A stretch of 47,571 nt of DNA from Clostridia bacterium. GTDB lineage: Bacteria; Bacillota; Clostridia; Saccharofermentanales; Saccharofermentanaceae. Below, one piece after another: positions 7,804-45,770 of the stretch. Position 1 is the first letter of the stretch; every line of letters begins with the position of its first letter. Position numbers and translations under genes: made by a program. The stretch covers positions 1 through 47,571 of the forward strand of contig JAKSRF010000006.1 of assembly GCA_024403755.1 (NCBI GenBank), in the 5' to 3' direction. The notes below the pieces were generated by a model. The model had not been told where the DNA came from. It did not search any database and saw only the letters and a list, made by a program, of their open reading frames with translations.

Positions 7804-9066
7804 ATGAAAAGAAAACTACGTAATTCTGTTATTACTGTTACAATCGCCTCATTGCTTCTCGGAATGTCGTCATGCACATCGACATCTCGTGCATCAACTG
7901 ACAAACCAACACCTGAAGCAACAACTGTCAACGGTGAAGGCGTACCGGAACTTACTGATGAACAAATCGCACACTTTACTTGTGAGATTATGCAGTCCCT
8001 ATACTCAAAGGAATCAAATATGAGTATATCCCCTGCTAATTTGTACATTATTCTCGGAATGCTGACTGAAATCACAGATGGTGACTCATATAATCAAATA
8101 TGTGAGTTACTGCAAACAGAAGATATAAATACTATAAGAGATGAAGTAAATAAATTAATGAACACTTCAAATCAGAACACTTCATTTGCAAATTCTCTTT
8201 GGAAAAGCATTAATTACTCTTATAAGGAAGAAGCAGAATCAAATCTTGCCGAATACTATCTGAATGAGTCATATTCTGTCAATATGGGAACAGAAGAAGC
8301 AAACGACCAAATACATAATTGGATTAATGAGAGAACAAATAATATGCTTAAAGAAGCTGCAGAGAAATTCAACACAAACCCGGATACAATTCTGGCTTTA
8401 GTCTCGGCAATATACTTTAACAGCAATTGGGAAACTGCTTTTCCTTCAAGAGAAGAACCATATATTGCCGCCTTCAAAACATCGGACGGAAATGAGATAG
8501 ATATTGAATATATGTCGGACAAAGGAACTCAATATCCTTACTTTGTCAGTGATTCATTCGAGGCAACCTATAAAGAACTGGATGACGGTAACCTTATGTG
8601 GTTTATCTTGCCTAATGAAGAGTATTCTCCTGAAGAAATCCTTAATTCCGAAGATTTTGAAGAATTTCTCTCAAATGAAAACAAAAAGCAGATATTACCA
8701 TCTGACTCGTCATTATATCTAACGATTCCTAAATTTGATATATCGTCATTTTACGAGCTTGAAAATCAACTTTCGAATCTTGGAATTACAAACATTTTCA
8801 ATCCGAATAAATCTGATTTCTCAAAAATTACAGACGACAGTAATTTGTATGTAAATGAATTCGTACATGCATCTAGAATTATGATAGACGAAGAAGGCGT
8901 AACGGCAGCAGCTTTCTCATCTGTCGGAATCAGAGCATATGACACAGAAAACAATGATAAATACCTTACTTTCAACAGACCATTCATCTATATGGTAACA
9001 AGCAGTGACAATACATCGTTACCACTGTTTGCAGGTGTCGTAAATAACCCAACTTCTCAAAACTGA
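7804..9066 (+). CDS. Serpin-family protease inhibitor, predicted lipoprotein
   Basis: Serpins trap serine or cysteine proteases by a one-shot conformational change. The 420-residue protein begins with a lipoprotein signal peptide (positively charged MKRKLR, hydrophobic core, MSSC with Cys24), so it should be anchored on the outer face of the membrane. Family landmarks are FANSLW, SAIYFNSNWETAF and the C-terminal NRPFIYMV. The reactive-centre hinge EEGVTAAAF (from about residue 363) keeps small residues at P12-P10, which is typical of inhibitory serpins. The loop before FNRPF is about three residues longer than in antitrypsin, so P1 is uncertain (Tyr or Glu region). GGAG lies 9 bases before the ATG. 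It is on the opposite strand to its neighbours and interrupts the usual tsf-pyrH order. Confidence 0.93.
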   Translation: MKRKLRNSVITVTIASLLLGMSSCTSTSRASTDKPTPEATTVNGEGVPELTDEQIAHFTCEIMQSLYSKESNMSISPANLYIILGMLTEITDGDSYNQICELLQTEDINTIRDEVNKLMNTSNQNTSFANSLWKSINYSYKEEAESNLAEYYLNESYSVNMGTEEANDQIHNWINERTNNMLKEAAEKFNTNPDTILALVSAIYFNSNWETAFPSREEPYIAAFKTSDGNEIDIEYMSDKGTQYPYFVSDSFEATYKELDDGNLMWFILPNEEYSPEEILNSEDFEEFLSNENKKQILPSDSSLYLTIPKFDISSFYELENQLSNLGITNIFNPNKSDFSKITDDSNLYVNEFVHASRIMIDEEGVTAAAFSSVGIRAYDTENNDKYLTFNRPFIYMVTSSDNTSLPLFAGVVNNPTSQN

Positions 9067-13889: not shown

Positions 13890-15935
13890 TTATGCGTTCT
13901 CTTCAGCAGAAACTTCCTCTGCAACTTCCTCAGCTGCAACCTCTTCACTGCTCTCAGGAACATAGAACTCATCATTCTCAGGATCAATCGGCTCAACAGC
14001 CTTTATAGAAACAAGAATCTTCTTCTGATCATTCTTGCCGTCCTTAATCTCAAGAACCTTAGCCTTAACATCCATACCAACCTTAAGAACGTCAGCAGGA
14101 GTAGCAATTCTTACATTTGAAATAGCAGAAACATGACACTGAGCATCTACACCCGGCTCAAGCTCGATAAATGCAGCCCAATCAATAATTCTGACAACCT
14201 TACCCATAACGATTGAACCAACAGGGATTCTCTCTTCAATGTTGTAATATGGGTTATCCTCATCCTTTCTGTAAGAAAGAGTAATCTTAGGACGCGAAGC
14301 CTCGATATCTGCAATATCTATTACAGTAACCTGAACCTCATCACCTTCCTGCATAATATCTGAAGCCTTTGCATTTCTCTCCCAACTTGCATACTTATTA
14401 GGAAGAAGAGCCTCAAAACCACCGATATCAATAAAAGCACCGAAGCTTGCGAAGTTCTTAACTTTACCTGTAATTGTCTTACCAACTTCAAGAACACTCA
14501 AAGTTGCTGCCTTCTTAGCCTTCAACTCATCTGAAAGAAGTGTACGACGTGAACCTGATACCTTAAGGCGACGATCCTGCTCCTCAAAACGTGTAAGAAG
14601 AACAGTAAGTTCCTGTCCGATATAAGAATCGATAGCATCCTCAGAAACAGGACGCAAATCAATCTGTGTCTTATGGATATAAACTTCAATACCTGAATAA
14701 ATAGCAATCAAGCCGTCTTTCTTCTTTGTTGTACGAACAACCTTAACATTAACCGGCTTCTTGTCGTTAAATGCCTGCTCTACAATAGCCTTGTTCTTGC
14801 TCATCTCAAGAGCCTGCTTAGAAAGAATAATCTCTTTGCCGAACTCAGTGTTCTTAATGCTCTTAACCTGAACTTCAATCTCTCTCTTCTCTGCAATAGC
14901 AGCATCTAAATCAAAATCAACATCGTTTGCAAATTCTTCTTTTGGGATTCTGCCTTCTGACTTATCACGTACGTCAACGTATACATAATCGTCATCTGCC
15001 GAAGTTATAGCTCCTTTCACTACAGCATTTCTTCTTAATTGTGGAATACTATCAACGTAGTCTCCAAAATTGATCTCATTCTCGCTCATCTTGCGAACAA
15101 CCTCCAAAAGAATAATTTCCGGTGTAGACGCACCTGCTGTAATACCTATCCTTGCCTCAGAACCGACCTTCCCGGAAGAAAGTAACTCATCCAACATATC
15201 AATGCTTTCCAACAAATAAGTCTCACTTAATCGACTTGCACAAATATCATAGAGCTTCTTGGTATTAGAACTGTGGCTCGATCCGAGTACCAACATAACG
15301 TCAGAAACCTCAGAAAGTTCCGCAGCTTCTCTCTGCCTATTTGCTGTCGTATTACATATTGTATCAAAAAAAGTAATCTTTGCAAATTTATTTTTAATAT
15401 TTTTCACAATTTTATCGAAAGTTTCTTTCGAAAATGTGGTTTGAGAGACAATACAACAGTTATCAATCGGGAATTTTACACTGTTCAGTTCTTCTGTTGA
15501 GCTTATTACCGCAACCTCAGAATTAACGGCTTCTCCACATATTCCCACTACCTCAGGATGTCCTTTGGTGCCGATTACTATAATGTTCTTTCCGCTTAAT
15601 GACTGTTCACGAACAATATTATGTATTTTTTTTACAAAAGGACACGTACAATCAAAGATTTTGCATTTTTTCTGTTCCAGTATTCTCATTTCATTCGGAG
15701 TGATTCCGTGTGCTCTGACAATAACCAAAGAATTATCCGGCACCTCTGAAGCATTATCGGCTATCTCAAAACCGCCCTCCAACAAATCATTAACCACCTT
15801 TGAATTATGGGTAAGCTCTCCCAACATGATTAATCGTTCTCCGCGATAATCATGAATCATTTTCTCTGCTGTTTCCACAGCATTCTTAACACCGAAACAA
15901 AAACCTGCATTCTTTGCAATCTTTATCTCTCGCAT
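13890..15935 (-). CDS. ispH: Fused IspH (HMBPP reductase) and ribosomal protein S1
   Basis: A natural two-part protein of 681 residues. Residues about 1-285 are IspH, the last MEP-pathway enzyme, with the three cluster cysteines in NAGFCFGV (Cys13), CTCPFV (Cys98) and DTICNTT (Cys194), and THNSKVV and AHG motifs. Residues about 300-660 hold four S1 RNA-binding repeats, for example GKVKNFASFGAFIDIGG. An acidic Glu/Ala/Val tail ends the protein. The IspH-S1 fusion is established in many Clostridia. The ATG at 15935 begins the usual MREIKIAKNAG; a GTG three codons earlier overlaps cmk. It lies one base after the cmk stop codon, is the last gene of its operon and is followed by the terminator at 13827-13862. 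Confidence 0.96.
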   Translation of the reverse strand: MREIKIAKNAGFCFGVKNAVETAEKMIHDYRGERLIMLGELTHNSKVVNDLLEGGFEIADNASEVPDNSLVIVRAHGITPNEMRILEQKKCKIFDCTCPFVKKIHNIVREQSLSGKNIIVIGTKGHPEVVGICGEAVNSEVAVISSTEELNSVKFPIDNCCIVSQTTFSKETFDKIVKNIKNKFAKITFFDTICNTTANRQREAAELSEVSDVMLVLGSSHSSNTKKLYDICASRLSETYLLESIDMLDELLSSGKVGSEARIGITAGASTPEIILLEVVRKMSENEINFGDYVDSIPQLRRNAVVKGAITSADDDYVYVDVRDKSEGRIPKEEFANDVDFDLDAAIAEKREIEVQVKSIKNTEFGKEIILSKQALEMSKNKAIVEQAFNDKKPVNVKVVRTTKKKDGLIAIYSGIEVYIHKTQIDLRPVSEDAIDSYIGQELTVLLTRFEEQDRRLKVSGSRRTLLSDELKAKKAATLSVLEVGKTITGKVKNFASFGAFIDIGGFEALLPNKYASWERNAKASDIMQEGDEVQVTVIDIADIEASRPKITLSYRKDEDNPYYNIEERIPVGSIVMGKVVRIIDWAAFIELEPGVDAQCHVSAISNVRIATPADVLKVGMDVKAKVLEIKDGKNDQKKILVSIKAVEPIDPENDEFYVPESSEEVAAEEVAEEVSAEENA

Positions 15936-15936
15936 C

Positions 15937-16620
15937 TTAAGCACCGATATCAGACTTATCTATATAACTGAGAAGCGTATTTAATGTTTCCTCAATATTT
16001 ATATTATCAGTACAAATCTCAACAGCTTCATCAACTTTAATCAACGGTGCATTGGCTCTTGAAGAATCCTGCTTATCTCTGTACTCGATATCTCGAAGTA
16101 CCTCTTCATAGGTTTGTGAGAAGTCTCCCTTCGAATTCAGTTCTGCCAGTCTTCTCTCTGCCCTTTTCGAAGAAGATGCCGTTAAAAAGAATTTATACTT
16201 TGCATTAGGCAAAACCTTTGAAGCAATATCTCTTCCGTCAAGAACAAAAGTCTGTGCCTTACTTATTTCTCTTTGCATATCAACCATTTTGGTTCTTACA
16301 ACTGCCAATGAACTTATATCCGAAGCAGCAATCGATACTTCAGGTGTTCTGATACTGTCGGTAACATCTATACCGTCCAAAATCATAAGCTGTTTTCCGT
16401 CAACAAACTTAATCTCCAATTTCATTGAATTCATCAATTCAGCAACCTTCTGTTCGTCCTTAAAAGGAATACCTTTTTTGATTGCGGCAAGTCCGCATGT
16501 TCTGTACATCGCTCCCGTATCAAGATACATAATATTTAAGGCTTTGGCCACACCTTTTGCCAAAGTACTCTTACCCGAACCTGAAGGACCGTCTATTGCT
16601 ATCTGATAAATCTCACTCAT
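15937..16620 (-). CDS. cmk: Cytidylate kinase
   Basis: Phosphorylates CMP and dCMP to the diphosphates. The 227-residue protein starts with the P-loop GPSGSGKST, then the NMP-binding region (YLDTGAMYRTCGL), and later DGRDIASKVLPNAKYKFFLTAS and RRLAEL typical of Cmk. It is followed directly by ispH-rpsA, matching the common cmk-ispH-rpsA order. GGAGA lies upstream of the ATG. Confidence 0.96.
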   Translation of the reverse strand: MSEIYQIAIDGPSGSGKSTLAKGVAKALNIMYLDTGAMYRTCGLAAIKKGIPFKDEQKVAELMNSMKLEIKFVDGKQLMILDGIDVTDSIRTPEVSIAASDISSLAVVRTKMVDMQREISKAQTFVLDGRDIASKVLPNAKYKFFLTASSSKRAERRLAELNSKGDFSQTYEEVLRDIEYRDKQDSSRANAPLIKVDEAVEICTDNINIEETLNTLLSYIDKSDIGA

Positions 16621-37833: not shown

Positions 37834-39039
37834 TTATTCCTCAGGGATATATTCTTCTCCCAAAAGCATACACCTTACAAACAGACCTGAACGTGTAATA
37901 AACTGATCAGGCCAATGTCCCTGTGCCTTCTGCTCCGGAGTCAGTATATTGGAAGCATACTTCAACGCATTGGAACTTTCGGTAACTGAGCCACCTATTG
38001 ACCAATTGCACCAACTAATATCATTCTCATCCATAAAATCAAGCCAAAGCATTGACTCTTCCGTATCCACAATTCCGTTTCCTGAATCATATGTAGTTCC
38101 CCACTCTGTACAAAATACAGGCAAACCGTTATCAAGTGCAGTCTGTACCTTATCTCGGTGATCCTGACCGTGTGAACCGGCATAAAAATGGAAAGTATAC
38201 ATCAGATTATCGCCTTCCAAAGGATTAAGTGAAGCTTCGTCTACATCCTGACTCCATGTAGCTGTACCGATAATGATAATATTATCAGGGTCGTTAGCTC
38301 GTATTACATCAACAACATCTTCGGCATACGGACGAATGGAATTTTCCCAATTAACGGTCTCATCAGGATTACCGAAGCATTCACCGTTTGGTTCATTGCA
38401 AATCTCATATATAACATTAGGATACTCACCGTACAACTCTGATATTCTGTTAAAGAAATCCAAGGCTTCTTCTTTATGTTCGTTCGGATCCCCGTCAAAC
38501 AGAATATGCCAATCTATTATCACGTATACTCCCTGATCGATGCACAGCTGAACATAATCAACCATTTGCTGATAATAAACTTCGGGATTTGGAATATAAC
38601 CATCAGAATTACCCATTGTATACATTGCAAGACGTATAACCGAACATCCCCAATCTTCAGCCAATGTCTGGACAGTATCTTTATTTACAAACATATACAT
38701 GCCATTCATTCCATAAGTGCTCATGCCCTTAAGTTGAACAACTTCACCACTCTCATTCACAATTTTTGTTCCTTCTACATGAAGCTGACCATTCTTATCG
38801 ACAACTCTTTCCGTAACTGCCGGAGTACTGAAAACAAGTTCCGGTTCTGTCTCTTCTGTTGTTTCCTCTGTCGTCTCCGCTGTTGTCTCAGACACGCTTT
38901 CTTCTGTAATATCAACTGAAGTTTCAGCAGTAGTAGGAACAGTAACAGGGACAGTCTCCGGCGGAAGACGTCTTGAACAGTTTGAAAATAAACAAGCCAT
39001 ACACAAAATGGCAGACAGAATTCTTATTTTTTGTTTCAT
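37834..39039 (-). CDS. Glycoside hydrolase family 5 (endoglucanase-like), predicted lipoprotein
   Basis: A 401-residue exported glycanase. After a signal peptide (MKQKIRIL, core, CLFSNC with a likely lipid-bearing Cys21, though Asn at -1 is atypical) comes a Thr/Glu-rich linker to about residue 75, then a GH5 TIM barrel: LKGMSTYGM, VIRLAMY, VIIDWH (His178), YEICNEPNGE with the acid/base Glu216, TFHFYAGSH, and VFCTEWGT with the nucleophile Glu312. These match bacterial cellulases of GH5, but mannanase or other beta-glucanase activity is possible. No binding module is seen. GGAGGT lies about 8 bases before the ATG. An operator-like repeat lies upstream at 39100-39131. Confidence 0.9.
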   Translation of the reverse strand: MKQKIRILSAILCMACLFSNCSRRLPPETVPVTVPTTAETSVDITEESVSETTAETTEETTEETEPELVFSTPAVTERVVDKNGQLHVEGTKIVNESGEVVQLKGMSTYGMNGMYMFVNKDTVQTLAEDWGCSVIRLAMYTMGNSDGYIPNPEVYYQQMVDYVQLCIDQGVYVIIDWHILFDGDPNEHKEEALDFFNRISELYGEYPNVIYEICNEPNGECFGNPDETVNWENSIRPYAEDVVDVIRANDPDNIIIIGTATWSQDVDEASLNPLEGDNLMYTFHFYAGSHGQDHRDKVQTALDNGLPVFCTEWGTTYDSGNGIVDTEESMLWLDFMDENDISWCNWSIGGSVTESSNALKYASNILTPEQKAQGHWPDQFITRSGLFVRCMLLGEEYIPEE

Positions 39040-39099
39040 AAATGCACCTCCTACGCTGACAATCCAGCTATAAAACAACACAAATATTAATCTGTATTT

Positions 39100-39131
39100 T
39101 TTGTAAATATTTACCAAAACTTATTTACAAA
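39100..39131. repeat. Operator-like cluster of half-sites upstream of the GH5 gene
   Basis: TTTGTAAATA and TATTTACAAA form a perfect 10-base inverted repeat with a 12-base spacer. The spacer itself completes GTAAATATTTAC, a perfect 12-base palindrome (39103-39114). Three copies of the half-site TTTACnAAA are therefore present. It lies 61-92 bases before the GH5 start codon. No regulator is identified. Confidence 0.5.
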
Positions 39132-39291
39132 TTCAGCAGAAAAGTGTAAAAATTAAATATAAGAGAATATGGTTTTGGGTTTCTCTACCACTATATTTTA
39201 TTGAATTTACAACCTATTGCAAGTGACGTTTTTAAATCGGTTGTATTTTATCAGATATTTATAGTGAGTTTAGAATAAAGAGGTGTGTTTT

Positions 39292-39633
39292 ATGGCAAAA
39301 ATTGACAAGGTTCGTGACAAAATAATGAAATTGGCAGCCAAGCAGAAAATTGATGCCGTTCTTAAATTTGCTGACGATTCTGAGGATGATGTCAGAGTGG
39401 CAGTTGCCGAAGCATTGGCATATATTCCTACTTATGAAAGCGGAATGGCTCTGATTCCTTTTTTGAGAGATGTATCTCCGTCTGTAAGAGCTGCTGCTGC
39501 TACATCGGCGGCAACAATTAATGCAAAACATTGTGAGGAATATGTTAAGAAGTTAGCATTTGCTGATGCTGATCCTTATGTAAGAGAAGTTGCAAAGCGT
39601 GCTTTTGATGTTCTTAAGACTTCAGTAATGTAA
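39292..39633 (+). CDS. Small HEAT-repeat protein
   Basis: A 113-residue alpha-helical protein made of about three HEAT-type repeats (DDVRVAVAEALAYIPTYESGMALIPFLRD, SPSVRAAAATSAATI, DPYVREVAKRAFDVL). Such repeats form a curved scaffold for protein binding; no catalytic residues are seen. There is no signal peptide, so it is probably cytoplasmic. GAGGTG lies 6 bases before the ATG. It is a single gene on the plus strand between two minus-strand groups, so its partner cannot be read from context. Confidence 0.75.
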   Translation: MAKIDKVRDKIMKLAAKQKIDAVLKFADDSEDDVRVAVAEALAYIPTYESGMALIPFLRDVSPSVRAAAATSAATINAKHCEEYVKKLAFADADPYVREVAKRAFDVLKTSVM

Positions 39634-39656
39634 TAGCTGAGATAATGAATATTTTT

Positions 39657-39700
39657 AGGGACTGTCTCAAAAGTGATTGAGTCACACAGAGGCAGTCCCT
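39657..39700 (+). terminator. Terminator-like hairpin after the HEAT-repeat gene
   Basis: AGGGACTGTCTC and GAGGCAGTCCCT pair as a 12-position stem with one U-G pair and a 20-base loop, 23 bases after the stop codon. The following tract (TCATCATTGTTC) has few T's, so efficiency is uncertain. It lies between the convergent HEAT and PP2C-module genes. Confidence 0.55.
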
Positions 39701-39822
39701 TCATCATTGTTCAAAAAATGATATAAACCGTCTCCTAAATCGGAAAAAGACTGTGTTTAAGTACCTTTTTTGCAAATAATTTGATTTTGAGTATGCTAAC
39801 GCTGATTCACTTCAAACTGCCA

Positions 39823-40389
39823 TTATTCCCTGTACCTGACAGTACAGCATGACAAATTACTACACTCGAGATAAGTTTTATCTGAAATTCTGTTAATAAG
39901 ATATTTAGCCCACACCTTACACGTATCACTTAACAAAGCATCAACCAGTACACCTTCTTCATTTACAAGAGAGAAAAAATAATTAGTACCCAATATTATC
40001 GAATCAGTCTCTTTAATGTGATAGATACCATTCGGTAAAGAATTTATTTTTCCCTCAGTAATAAGCTTAATCTGCGTACTTCCCATCACATGAGCCTCGA
40101 GACAATTCTCATCTATATGCATAATAATATATCCGTCTTCGGGAAGAGCCAGTTTATCAACTACTTCACAAAGAGTGGCAAACGGGTACTCAACATACTC
40201 GCTTGTAAAGAGTCTTCTCACTTTAGCTTTAAATTCGGATACATGAGATTTATATTCTTCAGTAAGATTATCCATATTGCTCTTTCCGTCAACAAGAGTA
40301 ATAAACATACCTCTGCTTGTATATATCATAATCTCATCCAGATATTCATTTAACTGTCCTTTATGTTTAATCGTGTATGTCTCAACCAT
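39823..40389 (-). CDS. Degenerate PP2C-like protein (candidate pseudophosphatase)
   Basis: A 188-residue protein not recognised as a named family. Compared by eye with the PP2C encoded just upstream, the fold signature is kept but metal aspartates are lost. LVDGKS (Asp34) matches the DGMGG site; VMGSTQIKLI (Ser104) matches YSVGDSAVIL; IILGTNYFFSLV (Asn136) matches LIASDGVLDAL; CSNLSCCTVRY (Ser177) matches the terminal QDNYTCIILKL. This suggests a catalytically dead partner or regulator of the phosphatase. The ATG at 40389 has GAGG 9 bases upstream. It is the last gene of the topA operon. Confidence 0.7.
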   Translation of the reverse strand: MVETYTIKHKGQLNEYLDEIMIYTSRGMFITLVDGKSNMDNLTEEYKSHVSEFKAKVRRLFTSEYVEYPFATLCEVVDKLALPEDGYIIMHIDENCLEAHVMGSTQIKLITEGKINSLPNGIYHIKETDSIILGTNYFFSLVNEEGVLVDALLSDTCKVWAKYLINRISDKTYLECSNLSCCTVRYRE

Positions 40390-40400
40390 ATACTTTTTCC

Positions 40401-41300
40401 TCAAAACATTTTATGTCGAAGCTTCAAAATGATACAGGTATAGTTATCCTGGGAATGGACCTTTTTTCCTTTAATCTCACTTTTTATTCTGGCAGCAGAC
40501 TTTCCTGCATCACCTGCAACATACTCAGGAAGCATATCGGCAGATAAAGCATCAAGTACACCGTCAGAAGCTATAAGAATTACATCATTATCCTGTAATT
40601 TCAAAGATTGTCTGGTATAAATCACATTAGGATTGTTATTTCCGATAAAATCGATTAATTGTCGTGATTCAGGCAAGAGATATGCCTCTTTTGTTACTTT
40701 TCCGGTTTTTGCCAGATTACTGACAAGGATTGAACCGTAATTCTGTTTATGATTCAATACAATACTTCTGCCGTTACGTATAAGAATTACAGCACTGTCA
40801 CCTACACTGTATAAATCAAGCATATTATTATCTACTCGAACAAGAACAAGAGTTGCGCCGGCTTCACGATTATACTTTTGAAAAATTCGGTTAGATACAT
40901 CTTTAATCTTCTTTACGATATACTCACGATGATCGTAATCATCCAAAGAAATCTTTGAGAATTCGCTCACAACAAATCTTGATACAAAATCACCGTGCGT
41001 CATTCCGCCCATACCGTCTGTAACCAATGCTATCAACCCATGTTTGTTATAGTTCTCCAAAGGTGATACAAAAAGTGCATCTTCCTGCCTTGTTCTTTGG
41101 CCTATCTCGTGAAAATATGCAGCATCCACATAGAAATTATTGTCAGGTTCTTCAGTACGAATCAGTAGTTCACGAATCAATACTCTCAGAAGAACAAATA
41201 CGGCAATTATTACAAGAATCGCAAGAGCAAATGCAGACGACAGAACTATTGTCGTCCATTTCGGCATATCGCTAAGAAAATCAGCCAATCGCTCTCCCAT
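40401..41300 (-). CDS. Membrane-anchored PP2C-family serine/threonine phosphatase
   Basis: A 299-residue phosphatase with a single N-terminal membrane segment (about 17-42) and a cytoplasmic PP2C (PPM) domain. Metal-site motifs are intact: TRQEDA (Asp74), VTDGMGG (Asp95), VGDSAV (Asp168), IASDGVLDA (Asp246) and SQDNYTC (Asp285). Such enzymes usually oppose a Hanks-type kinase; no kinase gene is in the window. It lies between a YesL-like membrane protein gene (2-base gap) and the degenerate PP2C-like gene. The anchored topology is less common than the soluble PrpC type. Confidence 0.9.
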   Translation of the reverse strand: MGERLADFLSDMPKWTTIVLSSAFALAILVIIAVFVLLRVLIRELLIRTEEPDNNFYVDAAYFHEIGQRTRQEDALFVSPLENYNKHGLIALVTDGMGGMTHGDFVSRFVVSEFSKISLDDYDHREYIVKKIKDVSNRIFQKYNREAGATLVLVRVDNNMLDLYSVGDSAVILIRNGRSIVLNHKQNYGSILVSNLAKTGKVTKEAYLLPESRQLIDFIGNNNPNVIYTRQSLKLQDNDVILIASDGVLDALSADMLPEYVAGDAGKSAARIKSEIKGKKVHSQDNYTCIILKLRHKMF

Positions 41301-41302
41301 AT

Positions 41303-42250
41303 TTAATCTCCCGAATCAACATTTGAAGAATCGTTAACTTCTGACTCCTCCTTTTCGACAGGTAAAGACGGCTTAAATACGTAGGTTTTAATTAATTCCT
41401 CTGTATAATAAGCAAACATAAACTGTATGAAGGATACAAGTATTGTAATATATGCAACTATTACTACAGCATAAGCTATGAATTTTGTTGTAAGAAGCAG
41501 GAAATACGGCAGTATCAGCAAGAGCAAGATAGTAATTCCCAAAAGCAAAAGGCATGGTCCAAAACGCATAAACAAAAAAAGTACCGCATTCTTATAAATC
41601 TTTTTAAGCGGTAAATCAACCGCTACTATCATCTGATAAACCATATTCTGTATGATAATAAAAAATAAAAAAACAGCTACAAAGAATGCCGCCACACCGG
41701 TGCCGAAGCTTCCGAAATTATTAACATAGAACGCTATAGCAAACAGCAACACACCTGTAAAGGCATATGATATAAGCATTGCCTTAAAAGCCTGCTTTGC
41801 ATTTTTGGTTATACCATCCTTAATATCAGATATCAGAAAAATAACATTTTTTCTGTATATATTACGATACAAATACTGAACTCCTGTCTCAAACGGGCCG
41901 ATACTCATGAGACCGCTTCCGACAAGGAACATTGAAATAATCAATACTATCAAATAGTAAACCTGAAAAACCGCATCACCGCCGACGTCATTCATCACCT
42001 TATTTCCGACAATTCCAAGGCTGTTCATATACTCAACAAAGTTCTCAGGAGTAAATGCCGAACTGAACTGCGGAAGCAAAAAGAGTGCAAACAGAAAACA
42101 AATTATCATCGCAGGAATATTGAGTATTATATATATAATATTTGCCGACATAAAATTAAGGAAATACGTTCCGAATGAAGAAAAAAAGGTATAAAGCGGT
42201 CCGTGTTCCTCTTCTACATAATCAATATTAACGTTCTTATCCTTAAACAA
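41303..42250 (-). CDS. YesL-like (DUF624) membrane protein
   Basis: A 315-residue polytopic membrane protein with about six hydrophobic segments. The region GPFETGVQYLYRNIYRKNVIFLISDIKDGITKNAKQA matches the conserved cytoplasmic loop of the YesL/DUF624 group, found often near carbohydrate genes. Its function is not known. The C-terminal tail is acidic and polar (EKEESEVNDSSN). It is set tightly between trmFO and the PP2C gene with 2-base gaps on both sides, which suggests a membrane partner for the phosphatase. Confidence 0.65.
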   Translation of the reverse strand: MFKDKNVNIDYVEEEHGPLYTFFSSFGTYFLNFMSANIIYIILNIPAMIICFLFALFLLPQFSSAFTPENFVEYMNSLGIVGNKVMNDVGGDAVFQVYYLIVLIISMFLVGSGLMSIGPFETGVQYLYRNIYRKNVIFLISDIKDGITKNAKQAFKAMLISYAFTGVLLFAIAFYVNNFGSFGTGVAAFFVAVFLFFIIIQNMVYQMIVAVDLPLKKIYKNAVLFLFMRFGPCLLLLGITILLLLILPYFLLLTTKFIAYAVVIVAYITILVSFIQFMFAYYTEELIKTYVFKPSLPVEKEESEVNDSSNVDSGD

Positions 42251-42252
42251 TA

Positions 42253-43599
42253 TTATTCCTCACTTACAGAAATTAATTTCTCCAATGACTTCTTCCACTC
42301 TTCTATTATCGTAAGACTTCTGTCGGCCAGTGCCGCTGCCTTATCCTTTTTTGCAGTCTTACCTTTAAATTTTACACCAAGTGCTCCCAAAATACCAAAA
42401 TTCGCATTCATCGGTTGAAATTTGACTATATTTTCGTCGGATATATAAGAAGCAAGTGCACCTATTACTGTTTTGTTATCAGGGACTATCTCAGGAGTCT
42501 TACCCAGAAAACGGTTGGCAGCAAAATAAGCAGCCATAAGTCCTGCACTGGTTGAAGGAATATATCCCTCGACGCCGGTAATCTGTCCTGCAAAAAACAC
42601 ATTAGGGTTCTCTCTTAAAGAATAATCCGAGTTTAAATGTCGAGGAGAATTTATATATGTATTTCTGTGCATAACGCCCATGCGATAATACTCTGCATTC
42701 TCCAAACCCGGAATAAGACCGAAAACACGTTTTTGCTCAGTAAATTTAAGTCTCGTTTGAAAGCCGACAAGATTATACATTGAAGTTGCTCTGTCATCCT
42801 GTCGTAATTGCAGGCAGGCATAAGGCTCTTTACCGGTTCTCGGGTCCGTTAATCCTACAGGTTTAAGCGGACCGAAGCGCATTGTATCTTCTCCTCTTGA
42901 AGCCATAACCTCAATAGGCATACAACCCTCAAACACTACTTCCTTATCAAAACCCTTAACGTCAGCTCGCTCGGCATTTATAAGTTCCGTATAAAATCTC
43001 AGATACTCTTCCCTGTTCATAGGACAATTAATGTAATCGTCACTGCCCTTACCGTATCTTGATGCCTTGAAGGCCTTGCTCATGTCAATAGATTCATAAG
43101 TTACTATCGGAGCTGCCGCATCAAAAAAGTGTAAATCCGTATCACCGAGAAGCTTAAAGATATTATCATACAATTCTCCGTCGGTAAGCGGCCCGGTTGC
43201 AATAATAGTAATCTCATCTGTCGGGATATCGGTAACCTCACCCGGAATAATCGTAATTAATGAATTACTTTTTATTTTCTCAGTAATAAAATGTGAGAAT
43301 TCATTACGATCCACAGCCAAAGCACCGCCGGCCGGTATTTTTGAAGCATCAGCAGCCATCATGATAAGCGAACCGAGTCTGCACATTTCTTCTTTCAGCA
43401 ATCCGGTTGCATTTTCCAATGCCTCTGCCTTTAAAGAATTACTGCAAACAAGTTCTCCGAAATCATCCGAGTGATGTGCTTCGCTTCGTTTCACAGGCTT
43501 CATCTCATAAAGATTAACCTTTATACCGAATCGTGCCAATTGGTAAGCTGCTTCAGAACCTGCCAATCCTGCACCGATAACATTAACATGATCAGCCAT
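42253..43599 (-). CDS. trmFO: Folate- and FAD-dependent tRNA (uracil-5-)-methyltransferase TrmFO
   Basis: Methylates U54 of tRNA to make ribothymidine using methylene-THF and FAD. The 448-residue protein has the FAD-binding GAGLAGSEAAYQLARFG at the N-terminus, HHSDDFGELVCSNSLKAEALENATGLLKEEM, and the C-terminal FAGQITGVEGYIPSTSAGLMAA. It follows topA by 8 bases, the order also found in Bacillus. Confidence 0.96.
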   Translation of the reverse strand: MADHVNVIGAGLAGSEAAYQLARFGIKVNLYEMKPVKRSEAHHSDDFGELVCSNSLKAEALENATGLLKEEMCRLGSLIMMAADASKIPAGGALAVDRNEFSHFITEKIKSNSLITIIPGEVTDIPTDEITIIATGPLTDGELYDNIFKLLGDTDLHFFDAAAPIVTYESIDMSKAFKASRYGKGSDDYINCPMNREEYLRFYTELINAERADVKGFDKEVVFEGCMPIEVMASRGEDTMRFGPLKPVGLTDPRTGKEPYACLQLRQDDRATSMYNLVGFQTRLKFTEQKRVFGLIPGLENAEYYRMGVMHRNTYINSPRHLNSDYSLRENPNVFFAGQITGVEGYIPSTSAGLMAAYFAANRFLGKTPEIVPDNKTVIGALASYISDENIVKFQPMNANFGILGALGVKFKGKTAKKDKAAALADRSLTIIEEWKKSLEKLISVSEE

Positions 43600-43607
43600 G
43601 AAAAAAT

Positions 43608-45770
43608 TTACTTCTCCCCATTCTCATTATCATTTTCTTTGTCAGAAGACTTTTTACGTGTCTTGTTGGTTGGACACTCCTTATTTGAACACTTTGGATA
43701 AGACTTACCTCTGAATCTTCTCCAAACCATATATGAACCACAGGTATCGCACTTACGGTCGTCAATAGGCAAATCCCAGGAAATAAATCCACAATCAGGA
43801 TTAGCGCCCTTCTTATCGCAGGTATAGAAGGTTTTTCCGCTGTATTTTCGAGATTTATGAGAAAGAAGTCCCGAACCGCATTCAGGGCACTTACCCTTAG
43901 CAATATTCTCAATATTACGGGTGTATCCGCACTTAGGGAAATTGGAGCAAGCTATAAACTTTCCGTAACGACCGGACTTTATCAAAAGTTCACCGTCGGC
44001 ACATTCAGGACAAGCTTCACCGAGCTTCTCTTCCTGCATCTTAACTCTTTCAACTTTCTTCTCGGCTTCTTCCACCTGACTGTGAAAATTCGGATAAAAA
44101 TCTCCCAAAAGCTTAATCCAATCAGTTTTGCCTTCTTCAACATTATCAAGATTGCTTTCCATATCGGCAGTAAACTGAATATCAACTATATCCTTAAAAT
44201 TATTATCAAGAAGTTCAGTTACAAGAACTCCGAGTTCTGTAATAATAATAGACTTGCCGCTCTTATCAACATACTTACGCTCAAGAATGGTAGATATGGT
44301 AGGAGCATATGTTGAAGGTCTTCCTATTCCGTTCTCTTCAAGAGCTTTAATTAAAGTAGCCTCAGTATAGTGCGGCGGAGGAGTGGTGAACTTCTGCTCA
44401 CCGTTTACGCCAAGATTTATAAGTGTCATATTTTCCTTAAGCTCAGGAAGTTTAACCTTTGTCTCATCCGTACTCGGACCTTCTTCGTTAACATCTGCAT
44501 ATAATGCAAGGAAACCCGGAAAAACAACAGTCTCACCGGCAACCTTAAATACATGATTCTTACATGAAGCCTCTACCGCAACTGTGTCTATCTTTGCAGA
44601 AGTCATCTGAGTAGCCATAAATCTGTCCCAAATCAGCTTATAAAGCTTATACTGATCAACCGAAAGAGAATTACGAATCTTATCAGGAATCATATCAAAA
44701 TGAGTAGGACGAATCGCCTCATGTGCATCCTGTGCCGAATTTCTGTTCTTGAAGGTTCTGACAAACGGCGCAATATAATTCTCACCGTAAACCTCTTTAA
44801 TATACTCACGTGATGAAGCTACTGCCTCATCGGATATTCTTACGGAATCTGTTCGAATATACGATACAAGCGCTGTAGGGCCGTCGCTTCCGAGTTCAAT
44901 TCCTTCGTAAAGCTGCTGTGCTACAGACATAGTTTTCTTTGAAGTAAATCCTAACCTTCTTGAAGCTTCCTGTTGCAAAGTAGATGTTGTAAAAGGCGGG
45001 AACGGATTTCTCTCCTTCTTTCCCTTTTTTACTGAATCTACCGTAAAATTATTACCCTTAACATCATTGATTATCTCATTTGCTTCTTCGGAATTGGAAA
45101 TCTTACGTTTCTCTGCCTTATCTCCGTTCTTATCACCGAAATACTTAACTACAAAAGCCAAATCAGAATTCTCGGCCTTAACATTACTGTCTATATTCCA
45201 ATATTCAGTCGGAACAAAGGCATTAATCTCATTATCTCTCAACATTACCAGCTTGGTTGCTACAGACTGAACTCTGCCGGCAGACAAGCCTTTGCGAATT
45301 TTACTCCAAAGCAAAGGACTTAATTCATAACCGACAAGTCTGTCAAGAATTCTTCTTGCCTGCTGAGCATTAACAAGATCCATATCTATGGTTCTCGGCT
45401 GACTTATAGCTTCCTGTACGGCTTTTTTTGTAATCTCGTTAAAAGTAATTCTGCACGAAGATAACGGATCAACATTCAAAGCCTTGGCAATATGCCACGC
45501 AATAGCTTCCCCCTCACGATCAGGGTCGGTTGCGATATAAACAAAATCACTGGCTTTATTTGCTTCCTTAAGTTCTTTAATTACTTTCTCTTTACCGCGC
45601 ATATTAATATATATCGGCTTAAAGTTGTTATTTACATCTACACCCAAAGATGAAGAAGGCAAATCCCTTATATGACCTACCGAAGCCATTATTTTATATT
45701 CATTTCCCAAATATCTGCCAATTGTCTTAGCCTTAGCAGGAGACTCAACAATAACTAGTTTCTTACCCAT
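43608..45770 (-). CDS. topA: DNA topoisomerase I
   Basis: Relaxes negatively supercoiled DNA by a type IA mechanism. The 720-residue protein has the Toprim start LVIVESPAKAKTIGRYLG, ATDPDREGEAIAWHI, the gate region with the catalytic Tyr in SYIRTDSVRI (about residue 300), and three C-terminal zinc ribbons (CPECADG, CPECGSG, CDTCGSY groups). It begins a five-gene minus operon and has a consensus promoter at 45812-45842. Confidence 0.97.
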   Translation of the reverse strand: MGKKLVIVESPAKAKTIGRYLGNEYKIMASVGHIRDLPSSSLGVDVNNNFKPIYINMRGKEKVIKELKEANKASDFVYIATDPDREGEAIAWHIAKALNVDPLSSCRITFNEITKKAVQEAISQPRTIDMDLVNAQQARRILDRLVGYELSPLLWSKIRKGLSAGRVQSVATKLVMLRDNEINAFVPTEYWNIDSNVKAENSDLAFVVKYFGDKNGDKAEKRKISNSEEANEIINDVKGNNFTVDSVKKGKKERNPFPPFTTSTLQQEASRRLGFTSKKTMSVAQQLYEGIELGSDGPTALVSYIRTDSVRISDEAVASSREYIKEVYGENYIAPFVRTFKNRNSAQDAHEAIRPTHFDMIPDKIRNSLSVDQYKLYKLIWDRFMATQMTSAKIDTVAVEASCKNHVFKVAGETVVFPGFLALYADVNEEGPSTDETKVKLPELKENMTLINLGVNGEQKFTTPPPHYTEATLIKALEENGIGRPSTYAPTISTILERKYVDKSGKSIIITELGVLVTELLDNNFKDIVDIQFTADMESNLDNVEEGKTDWIKLLGDFYPNFHSQVEEAEKKVERVKMQEEKLGEACPECADGELLIKSGRYGKFIACSNFPKCGYTRNIENIAKGKCPECGSGLLSHKSRKYSGKTFYTCDKKGANPDCGFISWDLPIDDRKCDTCGSYMVWRRFRGKSYPKCSNKECPTNKTRKKSSDKENDNENGEK

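Follow-up and report, generated by a model that had tools for sequence, protein, structure and literature searches.

Gut Clostridia of one genus strictly preserve a pair of neighbouring genes that encode an apparently active PP2C-type phosphatase and a relative that has lost the catalytic residues. In the window, as we refer to the 47,571-nucleotide stretch of DNA analysed here (contig JAKSRF010000006.1 of the Clostridia bacterium assembly GCA_024403755.1), the pair consists of a membrane-anchored PP2C-type Ser/Thr phosphatase (referred to as PP2C_A) and a protein of 188 residues that is almost certainly a PP2C-derived pseudophosphatase. As judged from sequence comparison, the latter very probably descends from a second PP2C (referred to as PP2C_B), which a sister genus still carries at the same chromosomal place, and is not a copy of the neighbouring PP2C_A. 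The observation of the original prediction, a complete PP2C followed by a PP2C-like gene with altered metal sites, is confirmed, while its interpretation as duplication and decay into a dead regulatory partner is partly supported.

All genes of the module lie on the minus strand, downstream of topA (43608-45770, minus strand) and trmFO (42253-43599, minus strand), both named from a reading of their proteins. The first gene of the module, with a TTG start, encodes a six-TM membrane protein of 315 residues (P0003; 41303-42250), followed by PP2C_A (P0002, 299 residues; 40401-41300) and the pseudophosphatase gene (P0001; 39823-40389, with its stop codon at 39823-39825). The stop of PP2C_A and the ATG at 40389 are 11 nt apart in the window, and this ATG, which gives the 188-residue product, is best taken as the start, with a Shine-Dalgarno-like GAGG, read from the sequence, lying 9 nt 5' of it (40399-40402, minus strand) and overlapping the stop region of PP2C_A. 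The genes downstream of the pseudophosphatase differ from those usual in the genus, and tgt sits on a separate contig (C99) in this genome. Its usual position is occupied in the window species and its closest relative (L034/L005) by a gene for a cellulase-like lipoprotein (37834-39822), and the pseudophosphatases of the same two belong to the most divergent members of the family (tree branch 1.5). Adjoining the module on the opposite strand is a small HEAT-repeat-like protein (39283-39633, plus strand, 116 residues; judged by eye). Elsewhere in the window are a secreted serpin-like protein with a lipoprotein-like start (7804-9066, plus strand, 420 residues), judged from its sequence only, and an IspH (LytB) protein fused to S1 RNA-binding domains (13890-15944, minus strand, 684 residues), judged by eye. 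Serpins are uncommon in bacteria, and the IspH-S1 fusion is known from other Clostridia.

PP2C_A is apparently an active membrane phosphatase. It matches PP2C_2 (PF13672) above the Pfam cut-off (E 7e-8; 32.6 bits against a cut-off of 24) and Stp1_PP2C_phos with E 4e-22, which is below the curated cut-off of that model. Its motifs are QED at residues 72-74, DG at 95-96, GDS at 168, SDG at 246 and DN at 285-286, and the five metal aspartates are intact in all 93 aligned PP2C_A sequences; a single TM helix is predicted near residues 24-42. Both the full set of metal aspartates and the membrane anchor had been read correctly from the window. The YesL-like character proposed for the membrane protein at 41303-42250 was recovered by way of its orthologues, two of which (L083 and L124) match PF04854 above the cut-off and a third (L131) falls just under it; the window copy itself gave no direct Pfam match, and its provisional assignment to DUF624 is made through the orthologues and its TM windows.

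In multiple alignments the small protein is collinear with the PP2C motifs, and the three replacements described previously are all seen: GDS to GST (residues 103-105; codon of S104 at 40078-40080), SDG to TNY (135-137; codon of N136 at 39982-39984), and DN to SN (177-178; codon of S177 at 39859-39861). Beyond these, the DG Asp (D34, aligned with DGxGG; codon at 40288-40290) is still present in the window copy but is kept in only 8 of the 77 distinct family members on which our residue counts are based. The QED site, which had been called not visible, is traceable after all, as D18 (codon at 40336-40338) takes the place of the QED Asp in the alignment and is conserved in 75 of 77 members. The other classical aspartates are retained in 14 (GDS), 12 (SDG), and 6 (DN) of the 77; no member has those of DG, SDG and DN together, and 55 have none of these. 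The DG, GDS and SDG columns are among the more variable of the alignment (70th to 84th percentile of entropy) and the DN column is mostly Gly (63/77), while the fold positions beside the lost aspartates are nearly fixed, with G103 and N178 invariant and F138 found in 76 of 77. In addition, about 45 residues between the GDS and SDG strands, which in PP2C_B form the flap and the helices next to it, are absent, and a conserved LPNG turn (residues 118-121; 40027-40038), with an invariant NG, stands in their place. Since catalysis by the known PPM phosphatases requires two or three metals (PMC12002173), the classical PPM reaction is not expected of this protein. The predicted product of 39826-40389 appears to combine what characterizes a pseudophosphatase, namely a phosphatase domain, lost catalytic residues, and a conserved gene.

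Direct searches did not assign the small protein to a family. The window copy has no direct match in Pfam or NCBIfam, the families matched by 30 members of its family in Pfam at E<=1 include no PP2C model, the family profile gave chance matches only when run against PDB sequences with hmmsearch, and no relatives were found in viral contigs. The kinship to PPM proteins that had been proposed was thus not visible in Pfam and became apparent through the profile of PP2C_B, as described below. A fold model was also built. AlphaFold2 gave a pLDDT of 36 with P0001 and one relative, and a pLDDT of 82 and a pTM of 0.80 with a six-row alignment to which four PP2C relatives had been added and in which the register was held at D18, D34-G35 and G103. 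The PDB matches listed by Foldseek for this model were PP2Cs (E 4e-8), and VIA-align over residues 1-188 gave Z scores of 18.1 for SpoIIE, 16.1 for PstP, and 15.5 for RsbX (PDB 3W40). The model thus has the PP2C fold and not an unrelated one; because the PP2C rows in the alignment may have steered it, we take it as consistent with a PP2C fold and not as independent proof.

The origin of the small protein was placed in PP2C_B on account of the profile match, a shared tryptophan motif, the trees, and the gene order. PP2C_B of the sister genus (g20) is a PP2C of 235 residues by Pfam with its metal aspartates intact. The pseudophosphatase profile matches it in hhalign with a probability of 96.8, E 2.8e-10 and a score of 69, whereas none of 100 column shuffles exceeded 24. 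The HMMs of the small protein and of PP2C_A both recognise PP2C_B, at about 1e-12 and about 1e-17, respectively, and single small proteins match the PP2C_B HMM, the best with 8e-11 (e.g., L084). The penultimate helix of the small proteins carries an E/D-W motif (W160, present in 76 of 77) that is shared with the PP2C_B types and absent from PP2C_A. In the trees the small proteins join PP2C_B with supports of 97/85 in a large set and 95/85 in a set trimmed of the longest branches; in the trimmed set the small proteins and all PP2C_B form a group with 100/99.7. The PP2C_A proteins of the two genera are sisters (98/95).

In the sister genus, PP2C_B is part of a larger cluster at the same chromosomal place, in the order FHA, PP2C_A (with a TM helix), a trypsin-like-TM-FHA protein, PP2C_B, and a Ser/Thr kinase, with comM-dprA-topA-trmFO-DUF624 before it and tgt after it. 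Further PP2C_B-type PP2Cs that match the small-protein profile come from three other families of the class, and each of them lies in the order FHA, PP2C_A, trypsin-like protein, PP2C_B, and kinase, except that the kinase of L141 lies on the FHA side. The order ZnR-FHA, PP2C_A, trypsin-like(-FHA) protease, PP2C_B and Ser/Thr kinase thus occurs repeatedly, in at least four clostridial families (L064-L081, L131, L140, L141, L142). We found no description of this recurring cluster in the open literature, and our results also point to a conserved and apparently undescribed gene cluster of Clostridia. One genome of the window's genus (G127; L101) has a second cluster elsewhere, consisting of FHA, PP2C_A', trypsin-FHA, PP2C_B' and vWA-FHA genes, in which PP2C_B' keeps its aspartates. 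A different FHA/PP2C/PP2C/FHA/kinase cluster (L122; G122:C11) lies beside three short proteins that, judged by eye, are WXG100-like (type VII secretion). PADLOC gave no match for the window module, and the kinase and protease of the sister genus match defence-kinase and protease models as generic domains only.

The simplest history would start from an ancestor of the window's genus (g1) and the sister genus in which the whole cluster stood between DUF624 and tgt. The g1 lineage would then have lost the FHA, protease and kinase genes from the locus, and its PP2C_B would have lost the flap and catalytic aspartates and kept its fold, becoming the pseudophosphatase, with the pair remaining behind DUF624. 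An outgroup genus (g17) has DUF624 between trmFO and the dapA/queA/tgt region and no PP2C in the interval from DUF624 to tgt; the cluster would thus either have arrived in the common ancestor of g1 and g20 or have been lost in g17. The cluster kinase is truly absent from several near-complete genomes of the genus (e.g., G005, G017, G001), because these contain one Ser/Thr kinase only at E 1e-10, which in G005 adjoins a PrpC-type PP2C. Two kinases and one FHA protein are encoded in the window's genome, all on other contigs.

Within the genus the pairing is fixed. Among 59 relatives searched, a single same-genus genome was without the small protein, and a profile search over the order found the family in 82 of the 85 genomes of the genus. 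As tgt, its usual neighbour, is missing too from the three genomes without it (G111, G016, G145), the locus is probably just unassembled in them. Of 80 genomes, 70 have tgt on the same contig at a distance of up to 4 kb from the locus, and in 41 the distance is no more than 200 bp. The tight module that had been proposed from the window alone is borne out, with the pseudophosphatase gene directly downstream of PP2C_A on the same strand in 76 of 76 distinct loci that have both genes, 61 of them with an exact 4-bp overlap. Among close pairs, dN/dS is 0.009-0.075 for the pseudophosphatase gene and 0.015-0.074 for PP2C_A where dS is unsaturated. The pseudophosphatase gene is under strong purifying selection, and only its catalytic positions drift. 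Given the low dN/dS and the conservation throughout the genus, the gene is not decaying, contrary to what had been suggested.

We consider the best explanation, which we hold to be somewhat probable, to be that the module is a stripped-down phospho-signalling operon, made of the DUF624 protein, the active PP2C_A, and a PP2C_B-derived pseudophosphatase that regulates PP2C_A. The translational coupling in most loci, the fixed pairing, the equal constraint on both genes, and the lost catalysis led us to consider the small protein a structural or regulatory subunit, and the dead regulatory partner of the original prediction is plausible. The computations show the homology, the lost catalytic residues, the conservation, the linkage and the gene order, while physical binding, regulation and its direction are inferred. 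In the most likely mechanism, the pseudophosphatase would attach to PP2C_A at the membrane, as a PPM:PPM partner that does no catalysis itself, and would set the activity of PP2C_A or its choice of substrate. The contact might involve the alpha1/alpha2 switch helices or the rim of the old active site, where the choice of the switch surface is a guess, and the DUF624 protein may anchor the pair or feed a signal to it. SpoIIE (PMC5468089) and RsbU (PMC12143880) provide precedents for this mode of action, alpha1/alpha2 dimer contacts being a common switch of PPM domains. That the small protein acts mainly by binding and regulating PP2C_A seems to us slightly favoured; the linkage would also fit two proteins that act on one substrate without contact.

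The main rival to regulation of PP2C_A is an RssB-like adaptor, in which the PP2C scaffold would bind a third protein, such as a phosphoprotein, a sigma-factor system, or a protease client, and bring it to PP2C_A or shield it from PP2C_A without regulating the enzyme. RssB is a precedent, being a bacterial protein whose PPM pseudophosphatase domain serves as an adaptor (PMC12143880, PMC5468089), and the replacement of the flap, usually a substrate-binding part, by the invariant NG turn, together with the fixed D18, N178 and G103 near the old active site, would fit such a role. The operon contains no candidate client gene, however, PP2C_A and DUF624 being the only genes linked to the small protein, and we regard the adaptor as rather unlikely, if the most serious of the alternatives. 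Far less probable is that the small protein is still an enzyme, a divergent phosphatase with other metal ligands. Such an enzyme could account for the strong conservation of D18, H9 (74/77) and E3 (74/77), and for the one or two classical aspartates kept in some members; yet 7-11 different residues occur at the positions of the SDG and DN aspartates (the M1 site) and of the GDS Asp, and no consistent replacement ligand takes over in a family of enzymes that depends on metals.

Equally improbable in our view is a decaying tandem duplicate of the neighbouring PP2C_A, the origin first proposed. The pseudophosphatase profile does have a weak, collinear similarity to PP2C_A of its own genus (hhalign E 4e-4, score 33, with 0 of 100 shuffles as high), and an AU test in which the small proteins were forced to group with this PP2C_A did not reject the grouping in the large set (p 0.087). 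However, an earlier hhalign control of the same comparison with another choice of columns gave a shuffle maximum of 30.3 against a real score of 28.2; since the shuffle outscored the real match, the comparison with the neighbour alone is too weak, and it was the bridge through PP2C_B that settled the PP2C ancestry. The match to PP2C_B is much stronger, the sister-genus PP2C_A scores at noise level, the trees support PP2C_B, and the AU test rejected the grouping in the cleaner, trimmed set (p 0.033). Moreover, both PP2Cs occur in the sister genus, in the same order and place, and the low dN/dS speaks against decay.

If the reading as a PP2C_A regulator is true, a pair of enzymes has been turned into an enzyme and its regulatory subunit. 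PPM pseudophosphatases are rare, and the family described here offers a stand-alone example that occurs in dozens of species and whose close, active relative is found in a sister genus. With the active partner always encoded by the adjacent gene and with purifying selection strong, the route from enzyme to regulatory subunit becomes directly testable when the PP2C_A/PP2C_B pair of the sister genus is compared with the PP2C_A/pseudophosphatase pair of this one. Whether the pair is the first bacterial obligate phosphatase-pseudophosphatase pair, in which a PPM enzyme would be under the control of an inactive PPM subunit of its own, derived from PP2C_B of a kinase/FHA cluster once the kinase had disappeared from the locus, we consider evenly balanced. 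The open literature describes TAB1 and PHLPP in eukaryotes and the RssB domain in bacteria as PPM pseudophosphatases, and we found there neither a bacterial pseudophosphatase that shares an operon with an active PP2C nor DUF624 together with a PP2C. PPM pseudophosphatases are thus already known (TAB1, PHLPP2, RssB), and it is the stand-alone pairing with an active PP2C that appears to be new here.

Among these known systems, human TAB1 and PHLPP1/2 are likewise PPM pseudophosphatases with lost metal sites (PMC12002173), but they are eukaryotic and have no operon partner phosphatase; TAB1 partners a kinase, and PHLPP2 is said to bind zinc. The C-terminal domain of Escherichia coli RssB is, like our protein, a bacterial PPM that has lost catalysis and part of its fold and is kept for protein-protein interaction (PMC12143880, PMC5468089). 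RssB differs in being fused to a receiver domain, in lacking a C-terminal strand rather than the flap, and in delivering sigma-S to ClpXP, and no paired active PP2C has been described for it; the 188-residue protein consists of the PPM part only, without an N-terminal receiver domain of the RssB type. SpoIIE, RsbU and RsbP, in which PPM activity is set by PPM:PPM dimerisation via the switch helices, provide a possible working model for the pair, but they are homodimers of active subunits, whereas the window pair would be a heteromer of an active and an inactive one. RsbX is a small PP2C like the pseudophosphatase, with 199 residues in its PDB entry. It differs in being an active phosphatase, of the stressosome pathway, and its structure was solved with magnesium. 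The PP2C_B types (L064-L081, L131, L140-L142) are the direct relatives of the pseudophosphatase by profile, tree, E/D-W motif and gene position, and differ from it in having kept the metal aspartates, GDS, the flap and the kinase/FHA context, and in their length of 235-240 residues compared with 180-190.
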